DNA from: Candidatus Obscuribacterales bacterium
GTDB taxonomy: Bacteria > Cyanobacteriota > Vampirovibrionia > Obscuribacterales > Obscuribacteraceae
Direction of reading: 5' to 3'
Length of the DNA: 64,000 nucleotides
Assembly (NCBI GenBank): GCA_020050835.1
Contig: JAGVKB010000049.1
Location: 62,001-126,000, forward strand
The notes under the pieces were generated by a model. The model was not told the origin of the DNA. It worked only from the letters and a program-made list of their open reading frames with translations, and ran no database searches. Below, in pieces: positions 47,361-55,772 of the stretch. Position 1 is the first letter of the stretch. Every line of letters starts with the position of its first letter. A program made the translations under genes and the position numbers.

Positions 47361-49217
47361 ATGCTGGGCGCAAATAAATTGACTATGTTTCAAAAAGGGC
47401 TGATCTTGATTTCAGTTCCGCTCATTTTTGAAATTCTCTTTGTTGCCGCACTCGTTTTTCTGCGTCATCAGGTAGAAATTGAGACGACGCGCGAGGAGCG
47501 TTCCAAGGAGCTGATTAGAGTTTCGCATATGCTCCTGCAGCAAAATCTCGAAGCATGCCAGCTACTGATGTTTCTGCATTTGACTCGTAATCATGAGTTG
47601 AGTGGAAAGTTGAAGCAAACGGTCGGCGAGATCTCGGCTGATTTCAACAATCTGAAGCTGCTTATTCGAGACAATCCGGTGCAACAGCGGTTCTTCCACC
47701 GATTAGAGCCGGTGCAGGCTGAGCTGATCAAGGACATCAGGAAGGCCGATCAAAGCTTGGGAGTGAAGTCGAAGTTTGACCTCTTAGAGGCTGGTGAATC
47801 GAAGAGAATTGCTGCTCAGCTCATGCTCAAAATGACTACATTCTTAGGGGCGATTATAGCGGACGAGCAGTCACGATTCGATCCCGGAGGCGCTTTGCGT
47901 GCGCGCAACAAAGCAGATACCTGGCTTTACTGGGGAGTGGGGTTGAATGTCGCTCTCAGTTTGGCGCTGGCGGTTTTCTTCAGCAAGCAGATTGCCGGAC
48001 GCTTGGTGCTGCTCAGAGACAATGCCTATCGATTGTCCAGGCAGGAGCCGCTGTCGCCGCTTCTTTCCGGCAGCGATGAGATTGCCTATCTCGACAGGGT
48101 ATTTCACGAAACACAGGCTACCTTGGCGGAAGCTAGCCGCAAGGAGAGAGCCTTGTTTGAGAATGCGGTGGACGCCATCTTCTCGTTTGATGTGAATGAC
48201 AGCTTTGTCAAAGTCAATCCGGCCGCGCAGAGGTCTTTTGGACTTGAGCCTGGCAGCTGGAGCGGGCGGTCGATTGACGAAGTAGTGCTTGAAGACGACA
48301 TACAGAGAGTTCGAAAGTTTCTCAATGATGTTAAGTCCGGCGCTGGTGTGGCTACTCTGGAGGCGCACTTTGTCAGGACTGATGGCATTGTGATTGATGT
48401 CTCCTGGTCGGCACACTGGTCTTCCAAAGACAAAACTCTTTTTTGTGTCGTCCATGACATAACCGAGCAAAAAGAGCTCGAGAAGCAGAAGAGAGAGTTC
48501 AGGGCGATGATCGCTTATGACCTGAGATCGCCTCTGACGGGAGTATTGTTCTCGTCGGAGCTACTAAGCGAGGGCGCTTATGGTGAATTGAGCGAGAGGG
48601 GGAGAGCGGAGCTTGCCACCATTGATGATTCCGTCCAGCAGATGTTGGTGCTCATTGACGATTTGCTCCAGGTTGAAAAGCTCGAGACCGGTCAGTTGGG
48701 TCTGCATCTTGAAGACGTTGACCTGGCGCGGGTGCTGGAGCGGTCGGTCAGACCGCTGCGCTCTGTCGCTGAGTTCAAAAAGATCAAACTCAGCATGCCG
48801 TCGACCAAAGCTTTAGTGCGGGCTGATGAGGACAAACTGGTACGAGTGGTGCTCAATCTTGTCTCCAACGCGTTGAAGTTCTCGCCGCCGGAGAGCGAGA
48901 TTGTCATTTCTGTCGACAGATGTGATGGCATGGTTATGGTCAAAATCTCCGATCGCGGTCCTGGTATCTCCGAGCAGGCGAGAGAGACTATTTTCGAGCG
49001 ATTCCGGCAAGCCGGTGTGGATGAAACGAAGGAGCAGCTGGGAACCGGGCTGGGACTGGCTATCTGCCAAGAGATTGTCGAGCTTCATGCCGGGTCGATC
49101 GGGCTCGACAGCACGCTCGGGAACGGCAGTACCTTTTGGTTCAAAATACCTGAGTCCGGCGATCAGTTTGAATTGGTGCCGGGAAGAAAGTCGGCCACGT
49201 CTTTTTCGTCATGCTAA
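47361..49217 (+). CDS. sensor histidine kinase lacking the phospho-accepting His (Tyr386)
   Basis: This 618-residue protein has a membrane helix at about residues 12-32, an extracytoplasmic helical sensor domain of about 160 residues, a second helix at about 195-212, a HAMP-like linker and a PAS domain (about 265-375). The HisKA box reads FRAMIAY386DLRSPLTG, with Tyr (codon TAT at 48516-48518) where the paralogue and the family have His. The ATPase domain is complete: N box NLVSNALKFS, G1 DRGPG (531-535), F box FERF, G2 GTGLGL (561-566). It should bind ATP but cannot autophosphorylate in the classical way. Tyr at this place is known from DivL of Caulobacter. The gene overlaps the next kinase by seven bases. 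Confidence 0.92.
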   Translation: MLGANKLTMFQKGLILISVPLIFEILFVAALVFLRHQVEIETTREERSKELIRVSHMLLQQNLEACQLLMFLHLTRNHELSGKLKQTVGEISADFNNLKLLIRDNPVQQRFFHRLEPVQAELIKDIRKADQSLGVKSKFDLLEAGESKRIAAQLMLKMTTFLGAIIADEQSRFDPGGALRARNKADTWLYWGVGLNVALSLALAVFFSKQIAGRLVLLRDNAYRLSRQEPLSPLLSGSDEIAYLDRVFHETQATLAEASRKERALFENAVDAIFSFDVNDSFVKVNPAAQRSFGLEPGSWSGRSIDEVVLEDDIQRVRKFLNDVKSGAGVATLEAHFVRTDGIVIDVSWSAHWSSKDKTLFCVVHDITEQKELEKQKREFRAMIAYDLRSPLTGVLFSSELLSEGAYGELSERGRAELATIDDSVQQMLVLIDDLLQVEKLETGQLGLHLEDVDLARVLERSVRPLRSVAEFKKIKLSMPSTKALVRADEDKLVRVVLNLVSNALKFSPPESEIVISVDRCDGMVMVKISDRGPGISEQARETIFERFRQAGVDETKEQLGTGLGLAICQEIVELHAGSIGLDSTLGNGSTFWFKIPESGDQFELVPGRKSATSFSSC

Positions 49218-51016
49218 AGCTGAGCAACCTCAAGCTGGTTTACAAAGGGCTGATTCTGGTAGCCGTTCCGCTTTTGTTCGAGCTCGCTTTTGTGGCGATT
49301 TTTCTCTTGCTAAAGCATCAAGCGGAATCTGAAGTGGCGGCGGCGGAAAAATCAAAATTGATTATCGCCAGCGCTCATGCCATCCCGGCCGCCGGAGTCT
49401 CTACTCTCAATCGATTGCTGCTCTATGGCATGCGTCGGACAGAAGAGGCTAGACAAGCCTACTATGACTACCGTGGTACCGTTCCGCAGAAAGAGAGAGC
49501 GCTCTTCGAGCTGATTAAGGATAATCCGCTTCAGCGGGAGAATTTCCAGGCAGCAGTGAAGAGCCAAGAGAAAGTTCTGGCTTACTTCGACAGTGGCGCT
49601 AGAACTATAGACGAGCACGGACTGCAAGCTGTTCTTATGCTCAACAGCATAAGCGAAAAGACAGCGGAGATGTTGTATGAAGGGACAGCTGCCTGGGCTA
49701 AGGTGGTTGAAGAGGAGGAGAAAAAGACTCACTTGCGAGCTGCTACCGAGTCGCGGGCAGTAGTCGATTACTGGTTGTACGGTGGAGTGTTGCTAAACGT
49801 TTTACTTGCAGTCGCATTGGTGCACTTCTTCAGTCGAGAGATAGCCAGAAAGATTGCGGTGCTGGTAGAGAACAGCAAGCGATTGGTGACTAAAGAGCCA
49901 CTTAGCACAATCATCGCCGGCTCTGATGAAATTTCGCAACTGGACAGTTCGTTTCACCAGCTGGCCGAAGAGTTGGCAGAAGCAGAAAGCAAGGAAAGAA
50001 CAATGGTTGACAATGCTGCTGACGTGATCTGCTCTTTGGATTCCAGCGGTCGAATCATTCGAATCAATCCGATCGTTAAGATGAATTGGGGCTATGGGGT
50101 AAACGAGTTAATCGGCCGCCGATTGCTTGAATTGGTGTCCAAAGAGGACAGCGTCAATTTTGAGCAGGCTACAGACAGGCTCAAGTCTGACCAGACCGAC
50201 ACAACTTTGGAGCTGCGACTTTACAGGCAGGATCAATCGTTGATAGATATTCTTCTATCGATGCACTGGTCTGCTCCCGATCAGACTTTCATCTGTGTTT
50301 GCCACGATGTCACCAGGCGCAAAGAGCTGGAGCGGATGAAAAGGCAGTTTGTGGCTACTGTCACGCACGATTTGCGTTCTCCTTTAACCGGCATACTTTT
50401 TACTACCGGTCTTTTGGTGGAGGGAGCGTACGGAGAGATCACTGAACGTGCTGGAAAGGAGATCGCTGCAGTTGAAGATGCCGTGACTCAGATGCTCGAC
50501 CTCATTAACAATCTGCTTTTTGTAGAAAAATTGGAATCAGGCAAGATGCAGATTAAGTTCAAGAATGTGTCGCTTTTGAGGCTGCTGGGGAAAGTCACCG
50601 CTCTGCTTAGCTCGACCCTTGAAAGACAGGCGGTTCAACTTACTGTCCCAGAGACTGATCTCGAAGCTTGTGTCGATGAAGAGAAATTGAGCCGGGTTTT
50701 CGTCAATCTCGTGTTAAATGCTGCTCGGGTCTCGGCACCGCGGAGTGAAATTCGGATTGCGATCGAACAAAAGGAAGGTATGGTCGAGGCAAGTGTGTTC
50801 GATCAAGGACCGGCATTACCGGACTCATTTGGCTCAGTAATATTTGACCGAGTGAAACGACTGGATAGTACGCTCAGCGACCTGCCCCGGTCTACCAGGC
50901 TGGGATTGGTGCTCTGCCGAGAGATAGTCGAATTGCACGGCGGTCGCATCGGTGTTGAGTCATTGCAGTCCGGTCCGGGCAGTCGATTTTGGTTTACGGT
51001 GCCGGGAAAGTCCTAG
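49211..51016 (+). CDS. sensor histidine kinase with intact His386 but degraded ATP-binding boxes
   Basis: This 601-residue protein is a paralogue of the preceding kinase with the same plan: two membrane helices, HAMP-like, PAS, HisKA, HATPase. The HisKA box is intact (VATVTH386DLRSPLTG). In the ATPase domain the G1 box is DQGPA (531-535, Gly535 lost), the F box FDRV (second Phe lost), and G2 is STRLGL (561-566, two of three glycines lost); the N-box Asn is kept. Key positions fall at the same residue numbers as in its partner. It is predicted to be a phospho-acceptor that needs another ATPase domain. The start ATG lies inside the upstream gene's end, so translation is likely coupled. Confidence 0.92.
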   Translation: MLKLSNLKLVYKGLILVAVPLLFELAFVAIFLLLKHQAESEVAAAEKSKLIIASAHAIPAAGVSTLNRLLLYGMRRTEEARQAYYDYRGTVPQKERALFELIKDNPLQRENFQAAVKSQEKVLAYFDSGARTIDEHGLQAVLMLNSISEKTAEMLYEGTAAWAKVVEEEEKKTHLRAATESRAVVDYWLYGGVLLNVLLAVALVHFFSREIARKIAVLVENSKRLVTKEPLSTIIAGSDEISQLDSSFHQLAEELAEAESKERTMVDNAADVICSLDSSGRIIRINPIVKMNWGYGVNELIGRRLLELVSKEDSVNFEQATDRLKSDQTDTTLELRLYRQDQSLIDILLSMHWSAPDQTFICVCHDVTRRKELERMKRQFVATVTHDLRSPLTGILFTTGLLVEGAYGEITERAGKEIAAVEDAVTQMLDLINNLLFVEKLESGKMQIKFKNVSLLRLLGKVTALLSSTLERQAVQLTVPETDLEACVDEEKLSRVFVNLVLNAARVSAPRSEIRIAIEQKEGMVEASVFDQGPALPDSFGSVIFDRVKRLDSTLSDLPRSTRLGLVLCREIVELHGGRIGVESLQSGPGSRFWFTVPGKS

Positions 51017-51067: not shown

Positions 51068-51739
51068 ATGGCTAAGATCCTTGTCGTCGAAGACGAAGCG
51101 CTGCTGGCAAGGAAGGTTAAGGACTGGCTCGTTCACGAAAAGTATATTGTCGAGCTTGTCGCCAACGGCGAAGATGCGCTTGGTTTGCTTGAAACTTATG
51201 AGTACGATGCAGTCGTGCTTGACTGGATGCTGCCTGGATTGTCCGGGCTTGAAGTGTTGAAAAGATTTCGAGCCGGCGGCGGCACGACCCCGATTATTAT
51301 GCTGACAGGTTTGGCCGAAATCGAAGAGAAAGAGATTGGGCTAGATACGGGTGCTGATGACTATCTCACTAAACCATTTGCGCCTAAGGAGCTGTCGGCC
51401 CGTATTAGAGCGCTGTTGAGGCGGCCGAGGGAATTTACAGGCAATCAGCTGATTGCTGGCAATCTGGTTTTTGAAGTTGAGGCGAACCGTGTCTTGAAAG
51501 ATGGTGAAGAGATTCAATTGCTACCGTTGGAGCGTGCTCTCCTGGAGTTCTTCATGCGGCATCCGAATCAAGTGTTCAATCAAGAGGCGATTTTGGACCG
51601 GGTTTGGAAATCAGACACTTTCTCCAGCACCGATGTTGTTCGGACGTATGTGAAGACCCTGCGGCGAAAGATTGACACGCAAGGGCAGGAGTCGAAAATT
51701 CGGACTGTATTTGGCGTTGGATACAAGTTCGAGCCGTAA
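51068..51739 (+). CDS. OmpR/PhoB-family response regulator
   Basis: This 223-residue protein has a receiver domain with acidic E8-D9, phospho-accepting Asp52 in VVLDWMLPG, Thr80, and Lys102 in TKPF. A winged-helix DNA-binding domain follows with LLPLERALLEFFMRHPNQ and SSTDVVRTYVKTLRRKID. All phosphotransfer residues are intact. It lies 51 bases after the kinase pair and is their obvious output. GGTGAGG stands about eight bases before the ATG. Confidence 0.95.
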   Translation: MAKILVVEDEALLARKVKDWLVHEKYIVELVANGEDALGLLETYEYDAVVLDWMLPGLSGLEVLKRFRAGGGTTPIIMLTGLAEIEEKEIGLDTGADDYLTKPFAPKELSARIRALLRRPREFTGNQLIAGNLVFEVEANRVLKDGEEIQLLPLERALLEFFMRHPNQVFNQEAILDRVWKSDTFSSTDVVRTYVKTLRRKIDTQGQESKIRTVFGVGYKFEP

Positions 51740-51947: not shown

Positions 51948-54900
51948 ATGAGCGGAATGGAGCAGCAAGAGAAGGAAGAAGTGCAGTATGTCTGCGATTG
52001 GAGCTCCAATCAAGACGGCGGCACCGGAGCACGACTGTCTCTCCTGGACCTGAGCGACAAGTTCTTACGCAGCGTCGAAGAGCGAAAAGACGTCCGATTG
52101 ATGGCTGGTGCGGACAAACTTGAGGCAAAATCAGAGCGCGAAACGCTCGACCAGTTGAAGAGTTCGTCTTCGCAGCGGGACAACTTAGCCGGGCGGCGGA
52201 TTGAGGCGATGCTTAACAGCGGTGACAAGCGCCAGCAGGAAGATGCTCGCAAGCTTTTGGAGATGGCCAGCGATCCCGAGAAAAAGGAGCTTGCTGTGGC
52301 AATCGTCGTAGACATTCCGACTGCGCAAGCGCGCAGCACATTTCTCGACGTACTGAGCAATCCTGCCCAGCAGGTGGCTGCTCAGAACTTGAGCGATATG
52401 CTTTTGGGTTTCGGTTATGCCAATAGTACTGAGCGCGGTGGCGCTCAAACCTTGCTCGGCTTGCTCGGCAGCCCGCTTGAAGGGCAGAAGACTGCTGGCA
52501 ACAAGCTGCTTGCCATGCTCAATTCCAGCGACTCGGAATTGAATATGGCGGCTTCCGGATTGCTCAAGCTGATGGCAAATGGAGACGTGCAGTCCGCCCT
52601 CGATGCTGAAAAACTTTCAAGCATGCTGTTGGGTTCCGACCCGAAGGAGCAGCAACTGGCAAAAACGGCTCTGTCAAAGCTCAACTGCCCCAAAGAGATT
52701 CATGCCTTTGTTGGTCTTTTGGAGCAGGCAGGCGCGGGCAAGGCGGTGGAAAAAATCGCCCAAATGCTTGGCTCGCCGGCCGAGGAAAGGCAAGGGCGCG
52801 CTCTGCTTGGCTTGCTTACCAGTGATTACGAAGTGGAGAGAAATGACGGGCAGAGGCTTTTCGCTCTGCTGCAAAGCGCAGAGCCGTCCGATTCCAAGTT
52901 CGCTCTTAGAGTGTTGAACTCGGTTGGCGATATGGAGCACCGCAGGGCAATCTTGAATGCCTGGCAAAATGCCGAGTTGAAGCCTGGAATCGAGCGCGTA
53001 CTGGACTGCGCCGAATCGACTAACCGTAAGGACAGGCTGCGCGGCTCCGAGCTGCTCAATGCGCTCAGTCACAAGAACAATCAAGAAAGCCAGACCGGCG
53101 AGGGTATTTTGCGTTTGCTGGGTGGTGACATAAGAGAGAGAGCGCTGGCCGGTGTAATGCTGGACAATTTCAACAGCGCCCAGCGGCGGGAGATGCTGGG
53201 TATGCTCCAGTCCGAAAACAACAAAGCCGGCGTAGAGAGGCTGGTCGACTACCTGACCGGAACGCCTCAGCAGCGCAGCGCTGCTGAGGCGTTGCTTAGA
53301 GTGCAAGGAGGGCTGAAGACCAATTTATTGAACAGGCTGGGGGAGCCCGATCAGGAAGAAACAGTCTTCTTGATGCTGCATCATTTAACCGGTCCGAGTC
53401 AGATCGCTGAAATGGCCAAATTGCTTGATGATCCTAGATACAAGGATGCGGCTCAGAAGATGATTGGCATGCTCAAAGACGGGGAGCGGGACTATCGAAA
53501 TGTCAGTGATGTTCGTACCGTTCTCTATATGATGGGAGCGCTTGATGATGCGGAGCGACCCGTGCCCAATTTTGGCAAACCGCAGGAGGTTGATACCACT
53601 AATGGTGAGCGCTTGCTCAGGCTGTTGAGCAGCGAAAATGCTGATGACCGCCAGCTGGCAGTTCAGCTTCTGCGTGTAAACGACCCAGTTGCGCGTAATT
53701 CATTGGTGACAATGTTGCACGACACCAAAGTTCCCCAAAACAAGGAACTCGCTCACCGCCTGCTCAAGATGCTGGGGGGCGCTGAGGACGGGCCGCTTGC
53801 TGCAGATATGTTGAGAACCTTCTCGGGCCCTGATGCACCGGCTAAGATGCAAAAGATGATTGAGATCCTGGACAATCCTAACTTGAAGCAGGCGGCCGCG
53901 CAGCTTCGTCTCATGAGTGCGCGTGATGGCGGGCAATTGTTGGAGCTGCTTGCCAGCGGCAATCCAGATCAAAGACAAGCCGGCGAAAAGTTGCTGGACC
54001 TGCTCAACGATCCCAACAAAGACTTGATCGGCGCGGCAAGAAAGATAATGCAATCCAGACTTGGATGGCAGGAAGTCGATGCGCTTCATACGTTGCTGAC
54101 AAATCCTGATAGTGAGAGGTCGGCTCGGGCGCTCGTCGATTTAGTGGTTGGGTTGAATCAAGGCGACACGGACCTGCAAGCGGTGCTGAGAACAAGGGAT
54201 GGTGTCTCCAGTTTTCTCAAGCGATATTATGCTGCCGATCTAAAAGAGAAGGAGTCCACGGAGCCAAAGGAGAAAGAAGCAGCTCGACAGGATAAAAAGT
54301 CTTGTCAAACCCTGTTTGACATGCTTGCTAAGCCGGAGAGCAGGGGTGTCGCGCAGGCTATTCTCTCCAATTTGACTGATCCAGAGCAGGTCAAGCGCAT
54401 GGTTGAAGCACTCGAGAACCCTCGCACTAGAGCTGGAGCTGAACAGTTGATCAAGCTCATGCAGCCTGAAGGTATGAGCGGCAAGTTCGCTGCGGTCGCA
54501 GAAATGCTAGGCAGCAAGGATGAAGCGACGCGCCGCGGTGCCGAGAGATTATTGGCGATGTTAGGCGACTCCGAGCAGGTCAAAGCCGGTAAAGCTCTGA
54601 TCGAGACCGCGCGTGATCCGCAATCGCTTAAGAAACTGGTTGAAATGATCGGCAAGGATGATTTGACTGAGGGCGGACGGCAGGCGCTCGCACAAATCCT
54701 TTTCCTGGCTGGGTCGTCAGGTAATGGCGATCGCAAGGCTCTGTCTAATTTGGTTGCACTGATCGGCTCCGATCTCCCGGCTGTCAGGCAGGTTGGCGAG
54801 AGATTGGCGGAAATGTTGTCCGACCATGCCACGAAGGCGCAAGCAAAGGCTGTTTTGTCCGGATTGGAGCAGCCGGCTCATTGCGTGCGGGTGATGGAGA

Positions 54901-55772
54901 TGTTGCAGAGTCCCGCCAGCGCTCAGGCTGGAAAGGTCCTGGTCGATATGCTTGCTTCTGGTAAGGAAGAGCAAGTAAGCGGAGTGCAAAGTCTGTTTGC
55001 AAATTCCAGGTTGAGCATCGGCTCCAGCTTGGATCGTCCGGAGCGGCTTGAAGTAGAAGAGATGATCGCCAGGCTTGGCGATCCCCGCACGAGCGAGCTG
55101 GCGAAGAAGGCTCTGTCTTGCGCTCGGTCGCCGGAACAGCTCCGGCTCTTGAATGACATGCTGAACAATCCGGCTTATCACAAGCAGATCGAGACTATGC
55201 ATGCGATGTCGCAGAGCCCGGAGAAGCAGATATACGTTCAAAGCATGCTGTCAGGCCTCAAGCAACCGGATCAGCTAAAGGAGATGTTGAATATTGCTGG
55301 CGATCCACAGAGACAGAAGGAGTTTGAAACTCTGCTCGAATTGCTTTCCAACGACGAATTCTCAGAGGAGGTGAGCACAGCAAGAGCGGTGCTGGCGATG
55401 CTGTCCAGTCCGCAACGTGAAGTGTCCGAGGCCGGCGCAAAAGTATTGAAGGCCCTGGGCTGCCCAGAAGTCGCCAAACCGTTAACCAAAGTGCTGGCGG
55501 CAGTCGGACCAAATGCCCGGCTGGCGGACTTCCTTTGTAAGCCCGAAAACAAGCTCGCTCTGGAGTCTTTAGGCGATTCGATCTCGGATAATCTGTTTGA
55601 GCGAGACCTCGGGCCACTGCGAAATCTTGCCCAGCATCTCAACAGCTCGAAGGAGGCTGATCGCCGTGAGGGCGAGCGCATTTTGAAAATGCTCAGTGAT
55701 CCGCGGCACAGACTCACCGGCTTACGGTTACTGGAACAGTTGCAGCGCCCAGGCGGAGAGGTTGGTAGATAA
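51948..55772 (+). CDS. 1274-residue HEAT/ARM-like alpha-solenoid protein
   Basis: AAGGAG stands six bases before the ATG. After an acidic, polar N-terminus (about 100 residues) almost the whole protein consists of degenerate helical repeats of roughly 27-40 residues with a recurrent LLxMLxS...xxAxxLL.xL pattern (for example KLLAMLNSSDSELNMAASGL, ERLLAMLGDSEQVKAGKALI). A Lys/Glu-rich insert lies near residues 765-785. There is no signal peptide, membrane helix or catalytic motif, so it should be a cytoplasmic superhelical scaffold. It resembles HEAT/ARM proteins but the repeats are too divergent for me to assign. It stands alone after the kinase-regulator locus. Confidence 0.88.
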   Translation: MSGMEQQEKEEVQYVCDWSSNQDGGTGARLSLLDLSDKFLRSVEERKDVRLMAGADKLEAKSERETLDQLKSSSSQRDNLAGRRIEAMLNSGDKRQQEDARKLLEMASDPEKKELAVAIVVDIPTAQARSTFLDVLSNPAQQVAAQNLSDMLLGFGYANSTERGGAQTLLGLLGSPLEGQKTAGNKLLAMLNSSDSELNMAASGLLKLMANGDVQSALDAEKLSSMLLGSDPKEQQLAKTALSKLNCPKEIHAFVGLLEQAGAGKAVEKIAQMLGSPAEERQGRALLGLLTSDYEVERNDGQRLFALLQSAEPSDSKFALRVLNSVGDMEHRRAILNAWQNAELKPGIERVLDCAESTNRKDRLRGSELLNALSHKNNQESQTGEGILRLLGGDIRERALAGVMLDNFNSAQRREMLGMLQSENNKAGVERLVDYLTGTPQQRSAAEALLRVQGGLKTNLLNRLGEPDQEETVFLMLHHLTGPSQIAEMAKLLDDPRYKDAAQKMIGMLKDGERDYRNVSDVRTVLYMMGALDDAERPVPNFGKPQEVDTTNGERLLRLLSSENADDRQLAVQLLRVNDPVARNSLVTMLHDTKVPQNKELAHRLLKMLGGAEDGPLAADMLRTFSGPDAPAKMQKMIEILDNPNLKQAAAQLRLMSARDGGQLLELLASGNPDQRQAGEKLLDLLNDPNKDLIGAARKIMQSRLGWQEVDALHTLLTNPDSERSARALVDLVVGLNQGDTDLQAVLRTRDGVSSFLKRYYAADLKEKESTEPKEKEAARQDKKSCQTLFDMLAKPESRGVAQAILSNLTDPEQVKRMVEALENPRTRAGAEQLIKLMQPEGMSGKFAAVAEMLGSKDEATRRGAERLLAMLGDSEQVKAGKALIETARDPQSLKKLVEMIGKDDLTEGGRQALAQILFLAGSSGNGDRKALSNLVALIGSDLPAVRQVGERLAEMLSDHATKAQAKAVLSGLEQPAHCVRVMEMLQSPASAQAGKVLVDMLASGKEEQVSGVQSLFANSRLSIGSSLDRPERLEVEEMIARLGDPRTSELAKKALSCARSPEQLRLLNDMLNNPAYHKQIETMHAMSQSPEKQIYVQSMLSGLKQPDQLKEMLNIAGDPQRQKEFETLLELLSNDEFSEEVSTARAVLAMLSSPQREVSEAGAKVLKALGCPEVAKPLTKVLAAVGPNARLADFLCKPENKLALESLGDSISDNLFERDLGPLRNLAQHLNSSKEADRREGERILKMLSDPRHRLTGLRLLEQLQRPGGEVGR

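Follow-up and report, generated by a model that had tools for sequence, protein, structure and literature searches.

Complementary lesions in two overlapping histidine kinase genes and in fused double kinases of the Obscuribacterales suggest composite two-headed sensors

The window analysed here is a stretch of 64,000 nucleotides (nt) from a Candidatus Obscuribacterales bacterium (assembly GCA_020050835.1, contig JAGVKB010000049.1, positions 62,001 to 126,000 of the forward strand), in which two overlapping genes encode paralogous sensor histidine kinases, here named kinase 1 and kinase 2. The first has lost the phospho-accepting histidine and the second has lost glycines of the ATP-binding boxes. 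We favour, with moderate confidence, the reading that the two proteins form one composite, trans-phosphorylating histidine kinase, as their sequences suggest. It also seems fairly probable that this bacterial family has repeatedly made obligate two-headed kinases, either as overlapping genes or as fused chains, in which the upstream unit would retain the ATP site alone and its downstream partner the acceptor histidine alone, and in which an asymmetric pseudo-heterodimer would join two sensors.

Lesions in the two kinases

Kinases 1 and 2 have a common layout, with two membrane helices flanking a helical sensor, followed by PAS, HisKA and HATPase_c domains, and in both the last two domains exceed the curated Pfam cut-offs. 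An earlier note on this DNA had described overlapping paralogues with equal residue numbering, and the alignment bears this out, being gapless to about residue 584 with 37% identity, across genes that overlap by 7 nt. The lesions named in that note are also present, as called from the profile alignment. Kinase 1 has a tyrosine (Tyr386, codon TAT) at the acceptor position together with complete ATP boxes (N box NLVSNALKFS, G1 box DRGPG and G2 box LGTGLGL), as both the sequence and the motif table confirm. Kinase 2 has the histidine (His386) and an N box, NLVLNAARVS, that retains its Asn, and three box glycines are gone from its G1 (DQGPA) and G2 (RSTRLGL, with the core STRLGL) boxes. At the level of sequence, acceptor and ATP site sit on different partners, as in heterodimeric split kinases.

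The Pfam scores locate the damage in the same place. HisKA scores are alike (55 bits in kinase 1, 54 in kinase 2), whereas HATPase_c scores 101 bits in kinase 1 and 64-68 bits in kinase 2, the latter among the lowest in a genome where most others exceed 95 bits. Outside the motif columns as well, the ATP domain of kinase 2 has drifted, with z = -3.1 relative to 99 single kinases. An AlphaFold2 model of kinase 2 retains the HATPase fold, with a predicted local distance difference test score (pLDDT) mostly around 90 and a poorly defined ATP lid.

Histidine kinase dimers pack through the dimerisation and histidine phosphotransfer (DHp) domain, and many such dimers phosphorylate in trans, with the ATP domain of one subunit acting on its partner. 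As the pair has one complete ATP site, in kinase 1, and one histidine, in kinase 2, only a mixed dimer with trans geometry could therefore react. In the proposed mechanism, which draws on this anatomy and on the parallel family of fused kinases described below, the membrane-anchored paralogues would pair via their DHp helices, kinase 1 would transfer phosphate in trans to His386 of its partner, and kinase 2 would then pass it to the OmpR-type regulator, whose gene lies just downstream. The pair would read two signals jointly, and gene fusion or coupling would secure an equal supply of the partners. The overlap of the kinase genes probably reflects translational coupling, and the regulator gene starts 51 nt past the end of kinase 2 (table 1). 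A hairpin sought between kinase 2 and the regulator scored no better than shuffled sequences. Downstream of the regulator, positions 51948-55772 encode a 1274-amino-acid (aa) protein of repeated helical-looking (HEAT-like) units.

Table 1. Coordinates of the kinase pair and its putative regulator, numbered from the first letter of the window
Feature	Coordinates	Strand	Description	Basis
Kinase 1	47361..49217	+	618 aa; TM-sensor-TM-PAS-DHp-HATPase histidine kinase (TM, transmembrane helix); Tyr386 replaces acceptor His; ATP-binding boxes all intact	
Kinase 1 acceptor codon	48516..48518	+	TAT = Tyr386 (His in family)	Sequence, motif table
Kinase 1 N, G1 and G2 boxes	48855..49058	+	NLVSNALKFS, DRGPG, GTGLGL; intact	Motif comparison
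Kinase 1/kinase 2 gene overlap	49211..49217	+	7 nt; kinase 2 ATG within kinase 1 end	
Kinase 2	49211..51016	+	601 aa; paralogue of kinase 1; His386 intact; ATP-binding glycines lost	
Kinase 2 His386 codon	50366..50368	+	Proposed sole phospho-acceptor of the pair	Sequence
Kinase 2 G1 box	50801..50815	+	Degenerate: DQGPA, second Gly lost	Motif comparison
Kinase 2 G2 box	50891..50908	+	Degenerate: STRLGL, two Gly lost	Motif comparison
OmpR-type response regulator	51068..51739	+	Receiver + Trans_reg_C; proposed target	Pfam domains

Fused double kinases in related genomes

The same genome encodes, at locus L214, a protein of 1230 aa that consists of two whole kinases joined end to end. Its module 1 has lost the histidine (VSEFEQPL) and has perfect ATP boxes, and its module 2 has the acceptor motif THDLRSP and is without N, G1 or G2 box. 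A search with this protein led to further fused double kinases in other genera, and 26 complete ones, of about 1220-1310 aa, were collected from related genomes. Lesions are complementary, and in the same order as in the window pair, in 19 of the 26: module 1 is without the histidine and has all seven of seven ATP-box residues, and module 2 has an intact HDLR(T/S/N)P motif and has lost three to seven box residues. Five of the others are intact in both halves and one has lost the module 1 histidine only. The remaining one, in genome G020 (L312; L352:4518-8276, G020:C290), is of the opposite type, with the module 1 histidine kept, G-box glycines lost, module 2 boxes intact and HG in place of HD; it is adjoined by a regulator gene and was excluded from the complementary count. 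The residue that replaces the module 1 histidine in the fused family is S, F, Q, R, N or Y. In an alignment of 24 fused proteins, the invariant columns are the module 1 ATP-box residues and the H-D-L-R-P of module 2, and the module 1 histidine column and the module 2 boxes are variable. No fused homologue was found outside this bacterial family among 386 genomes of the phylum (E<=1e-130, two candidates scored per genome).

The degenerate domains have also changed elsewhere. With the motif columns omitted, the module 1 DHp has drifted with z of -2.7 to -6 and the module 2 ATP domain with z of -3.5 to -8, and their partner domains (the module 1 ATP domain and the module 2 DHp) drift far less. 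When fused orthologues are compared, the module 2 ATP domain has changed in amino-acid sequence 1.8-5 times as fast as that of module 1, and the module 2 DHp has changed little; in an intact fused pair both ATP domains change about equally fast. The ratio of nonsynonymous to synonymous change per site (pN/pS) is 0.02-0.34 in the fused family, with synonymous sites saturated, so that these rates are only relative. Every domain nevertheless changes much more slowly than the synonymous sites, so constraint persists even on the degenerate ATP domain, which perhaps serves as a scaffold. Selection in the fused family retains one acceptor histidine and one ATP site per pair, a division that evolved separately from that of the window pair.

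An AlphaFold2 model of one fused protein (mean pLDDT 80, predicted template modelling score 0.52) has two DHp and two HATPase-like folds, in an inter-module arrangement that is not confident. The fold of the degenerate ATP domain is kept in this model, as in that of kinase 2, and Foldseek gave ordinary histidine kinase cores as the only matches.

For most of the fused relatives no regulator gene was found close by, and some of their surroundings deserve mention. Three fused double kinases stand in a row in the genome that carries L214 (L142:4085-15527, G000:C2), and all six of their modules are intact. In genome G022, two fused kinases with complementary lesions are in tandem (L342:3090-10615, G022:C506), and the acceptor position in module 1 of the first is Tyr, as in the window. 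A complementary fused kinase of genome G021 directly follows the genes for murC, murB and D-Ala-D-Ala ligase (L350:2130-9281), and its orthologue in G024 (L353:5213-12370) has neighbours of about equal sizes and order, which suggests a cell-wall-linked sensor.

Origins and base rates

Phylogenetic analysis separates the window pair from the fused family. In a tree of 99 rows built on the sensor-PAS-DHp columns, the module 1 copies form one clade and the module 2 copies one or two, in agreement with one fusion, and kinases 1 and 2 are sisters placed among lone kinases. A mixture-model tree agrees: it joins the two as sisters (100/98) away from the fused clade, and a grouping of kinase 1 with the module 1 clade is rejected by the approximately unbiased (AU) test (p = 0.0006). 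The trees and this test rule out that the window pair descends from a member of the fused family that was split, and because they place it outside that clade, the complementary pattern arose separately in the window pair.

At L217, another tandem pair of the window genome, the first kinase has R for H with intact boxes and the second keeps the histidine with a damaged G2 box; these two are sisters (100/97) elsewhere in the tree, and the pair would be a third, milder origin. Judging from these sequences, the complementary pattern arose at least twice and probably three times. The overlapping genes at L262, in another genus, encode a first kinase with A for H and a second with the histidine and no recognisable ATP boxes, and they group with the fused family though split into two genes. 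Two further candidates were dropped. At L215 (L215:2825-6973, G000:C12) the order of the lesions is reversed and the second gene has an in-frame stop in the N-box region. At L182 (L182:11254-14999, G044:C88), a half case only, the genes overlap and the first is intact, and the second encodes a receiver-like N-terminus followed by a histidine kinase with the histidine kept and the boxes DQGAA and DTGSSL.

Lesions of this kind are rare among lone kinases. The source genome (7.0 Mb in 154 contigs) has about 85-90 histidine kinases; its kinome was compiled from domain searches and sequence regions, with essentially all kinases retrieved and the catalytic cores aligned. With the window pair excluded, 67 of 68 unpaired modules with a readable site have the histidine, and the lone exception (L222:2422-4734, G000:C73), which carries Asp in its place and also lacks the ATP boxes, is probably a pseudokinase. 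Within this genome, the histidine is lost in 5/20 paired (tandem or fused) modules and 1/68 single ones (Fisher p = 0.002), and ATP-box residues in 4/20 and 3/69, respectively (p 0.04), p values that are rough because the modules inside one pair are not independent. Over all genomes, 112 of 115 lone family or histidine kinase proteins that are 500 aa or longer have the histidine and all ATP boxes, and none of the 115 combines a lost histidine with an intact ATP domain.

A codon-pattern scan of 50 genomes for YDLR(S/T/C/W)P gave 46 matches, fewer than the backwards control, so these are mostly chance; the HDLR version gave hundreds, far over its control. Among the YDLR-pattern loci retrieved, the window locus alone is a family kinase. 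No orthologue of the window pair was found among 50 genomes of the same family, and a contig search gave distant kinases only. The relatives were sampled through similarity searches, and the sample is biased accordingly.

Alternative readings and known systems

Several observations weigh against a composite kinase. The lesions of the fused clade trace to few events (two changes of the module 1 histidine and one of the module 2 ATP domain), so the 19 fused proteins are not 19 origins. Pairing by itself need not lead to a division of labour, since the tandem pairs L147, L193, L212, L213 and L216 and five fused kinases have both halves intact. In the window pair, the DHp of kinase 1 shows no unusual drift (z = -1.5), unlike the His-less modules of the fused family, so Tyr386 could be recent and the pair perhaps still at an early stage. 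The codon TAT is one base from CAT (His), a single critical base in an assembled genome. With the N-box Asn and the G1 Asp retained, kinase 2 may still have some affinity for nucleotide. The pair is also known from one assembled genome only, and the genus comprises one genome.

The critical base and the unrelaxed DHp of kinase 1 would both fit an assembly error or strain variant at Tyr386, since a single C/T difference in a metagenome assembly would leave kinase 1 an ordinary active kinase and kinase 2 alone degenerate. This is extremely improbable, because other pairs of the genome (L214, L217 and L145) have the pattern in the same direction and because the lesions of kinase 2 are too many for one error. 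What is left of the kinase 2 boxes (N-box Asn, G1 Asp and part of G2) bears on a different reading, in which kinase 2 autophosphorylates with residual ATP binding, and kinase 1 is a catalytically silent, DivL- or RetS-like regulator that binds and modulates the response regulator or kinase 2. The earlier note had cited DivL as a parallel. In Caulobacter, DivL is a sensor of DivK~P with weak ATP binding, whose Tyr contributes to function and which acts without kinase activity (PMC4211667), and like kinase 1 it has Tyr at the acceptor position within a full histidine kinase core. A DivL-type pseudokinase, however, joins the Tyr to impaired ATP binding, whereas the ATP-box residues of kinase 1 are all in place, and a silent regulator would have no need of them. 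In the parallel cases the place of the histidine is taken by S, F, Q, R, N, A or Y; because this residue varies, a DivL-like function of the Tyr is not favoured, and we consider a silent regulator unlikely. The parallel with DivL is thus not supported, and the other part of the proposal, with kinase 1 as ATPase and kinase 2 as acceptor, is strongly supported by recurrence (the 19 of 26 fused kinases, L262 and the milder L217).

A duplicate in neutral decay, with two unrelated accidents before loss, would agree with the single genome, the drifting ATP domain of kinase 2 and the in-frame stop that breaks another pair of this genome (L215). Both frames are nevertheless open across 1200 codons despite 63% divergence, the lesions hit opposite partners, and the fused family keeps the complementary state across genera under amino-acid constraint, so we judge decay decidedly unlikely. 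Because the genome encodes some 85-90 histidine kinases, many of them built alike, kinase 1 might instead be a shared donor that phosphorylates the histidine of other family kinases; but the gene overlap, the sister relationship and the complementary lesions all point to kinase 2, and the fused forms link the partners physically, which makes a shared donor very improbable. The composite of kinases 1 and 2 remains our preferred reading.

Sensor kinases of the textbook kind form symmetric homodimers, and few natural obligate kinase heterodimers are known. In Mycobacterium tuberculosis, HK1/HK2-TcrA (Rv0600c-Rv0602c) has the ATP-binding part and the histidine part on adjacent genes with one regulator, as truncated proteins, unlike the two full-length paralogues of the window. 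The nearest experimentally studied case is FasB/FasC-FasA of group A Streptococcus, which like the window has two kinase genes and one regulator, and in which FasC supplies the histidine and FasB the ATPase (PMC12675982). One partner can do without its ATPase domain and needs its DHp histidine, and two-hybrid data support a heterodimer (PMC12675982). Truncations and mutations established that division, and candidate His residues are present in FasB, whereas the lesions of the window pair are visible in the sequence; FasBC also have six transmembrane domains, and the window pair two membrane helices, PAS and HisKA. CheA3 and CheA4 of Rhodobacter sphaeroides, one without the phosphorylatable domain and the other without the catalytic domain, do not autophosphorylate alone and do so when mixed (PMC3591291). 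There, whole domains of a CheA architecture are absent, whereas in the window pair both folds are full-length and the lesions lie in motifs. Division of labour between kinases is therefore not new. Proteins with two transmitters, like the fused relatives, numbered two among 15,704 non-hybrid kinases in one survey (PMC3018481), compared with at least 26 two-module proteins in this bacterial family, 19 of them with complementary lesions. The fused single-chain form appears to be new, and no description of lineage-wide single-chain complementary kinases, or of their separate evolution in tandem genes, was found in the open-licence literature.

The lineage holds the intermediate states, from intact fused pairs and loss of the histidine only to complementary fused kinases and separately evolved tandem pairs, and because all of these are present, how a duplicated kinase gives rise to half-enzymes can be tested directly. 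In natural single-chain heterodimers, cis and trans phosphorylation could be distinguished without engineering. The arrangement suggests a simple route for wiring two inputs to one output.

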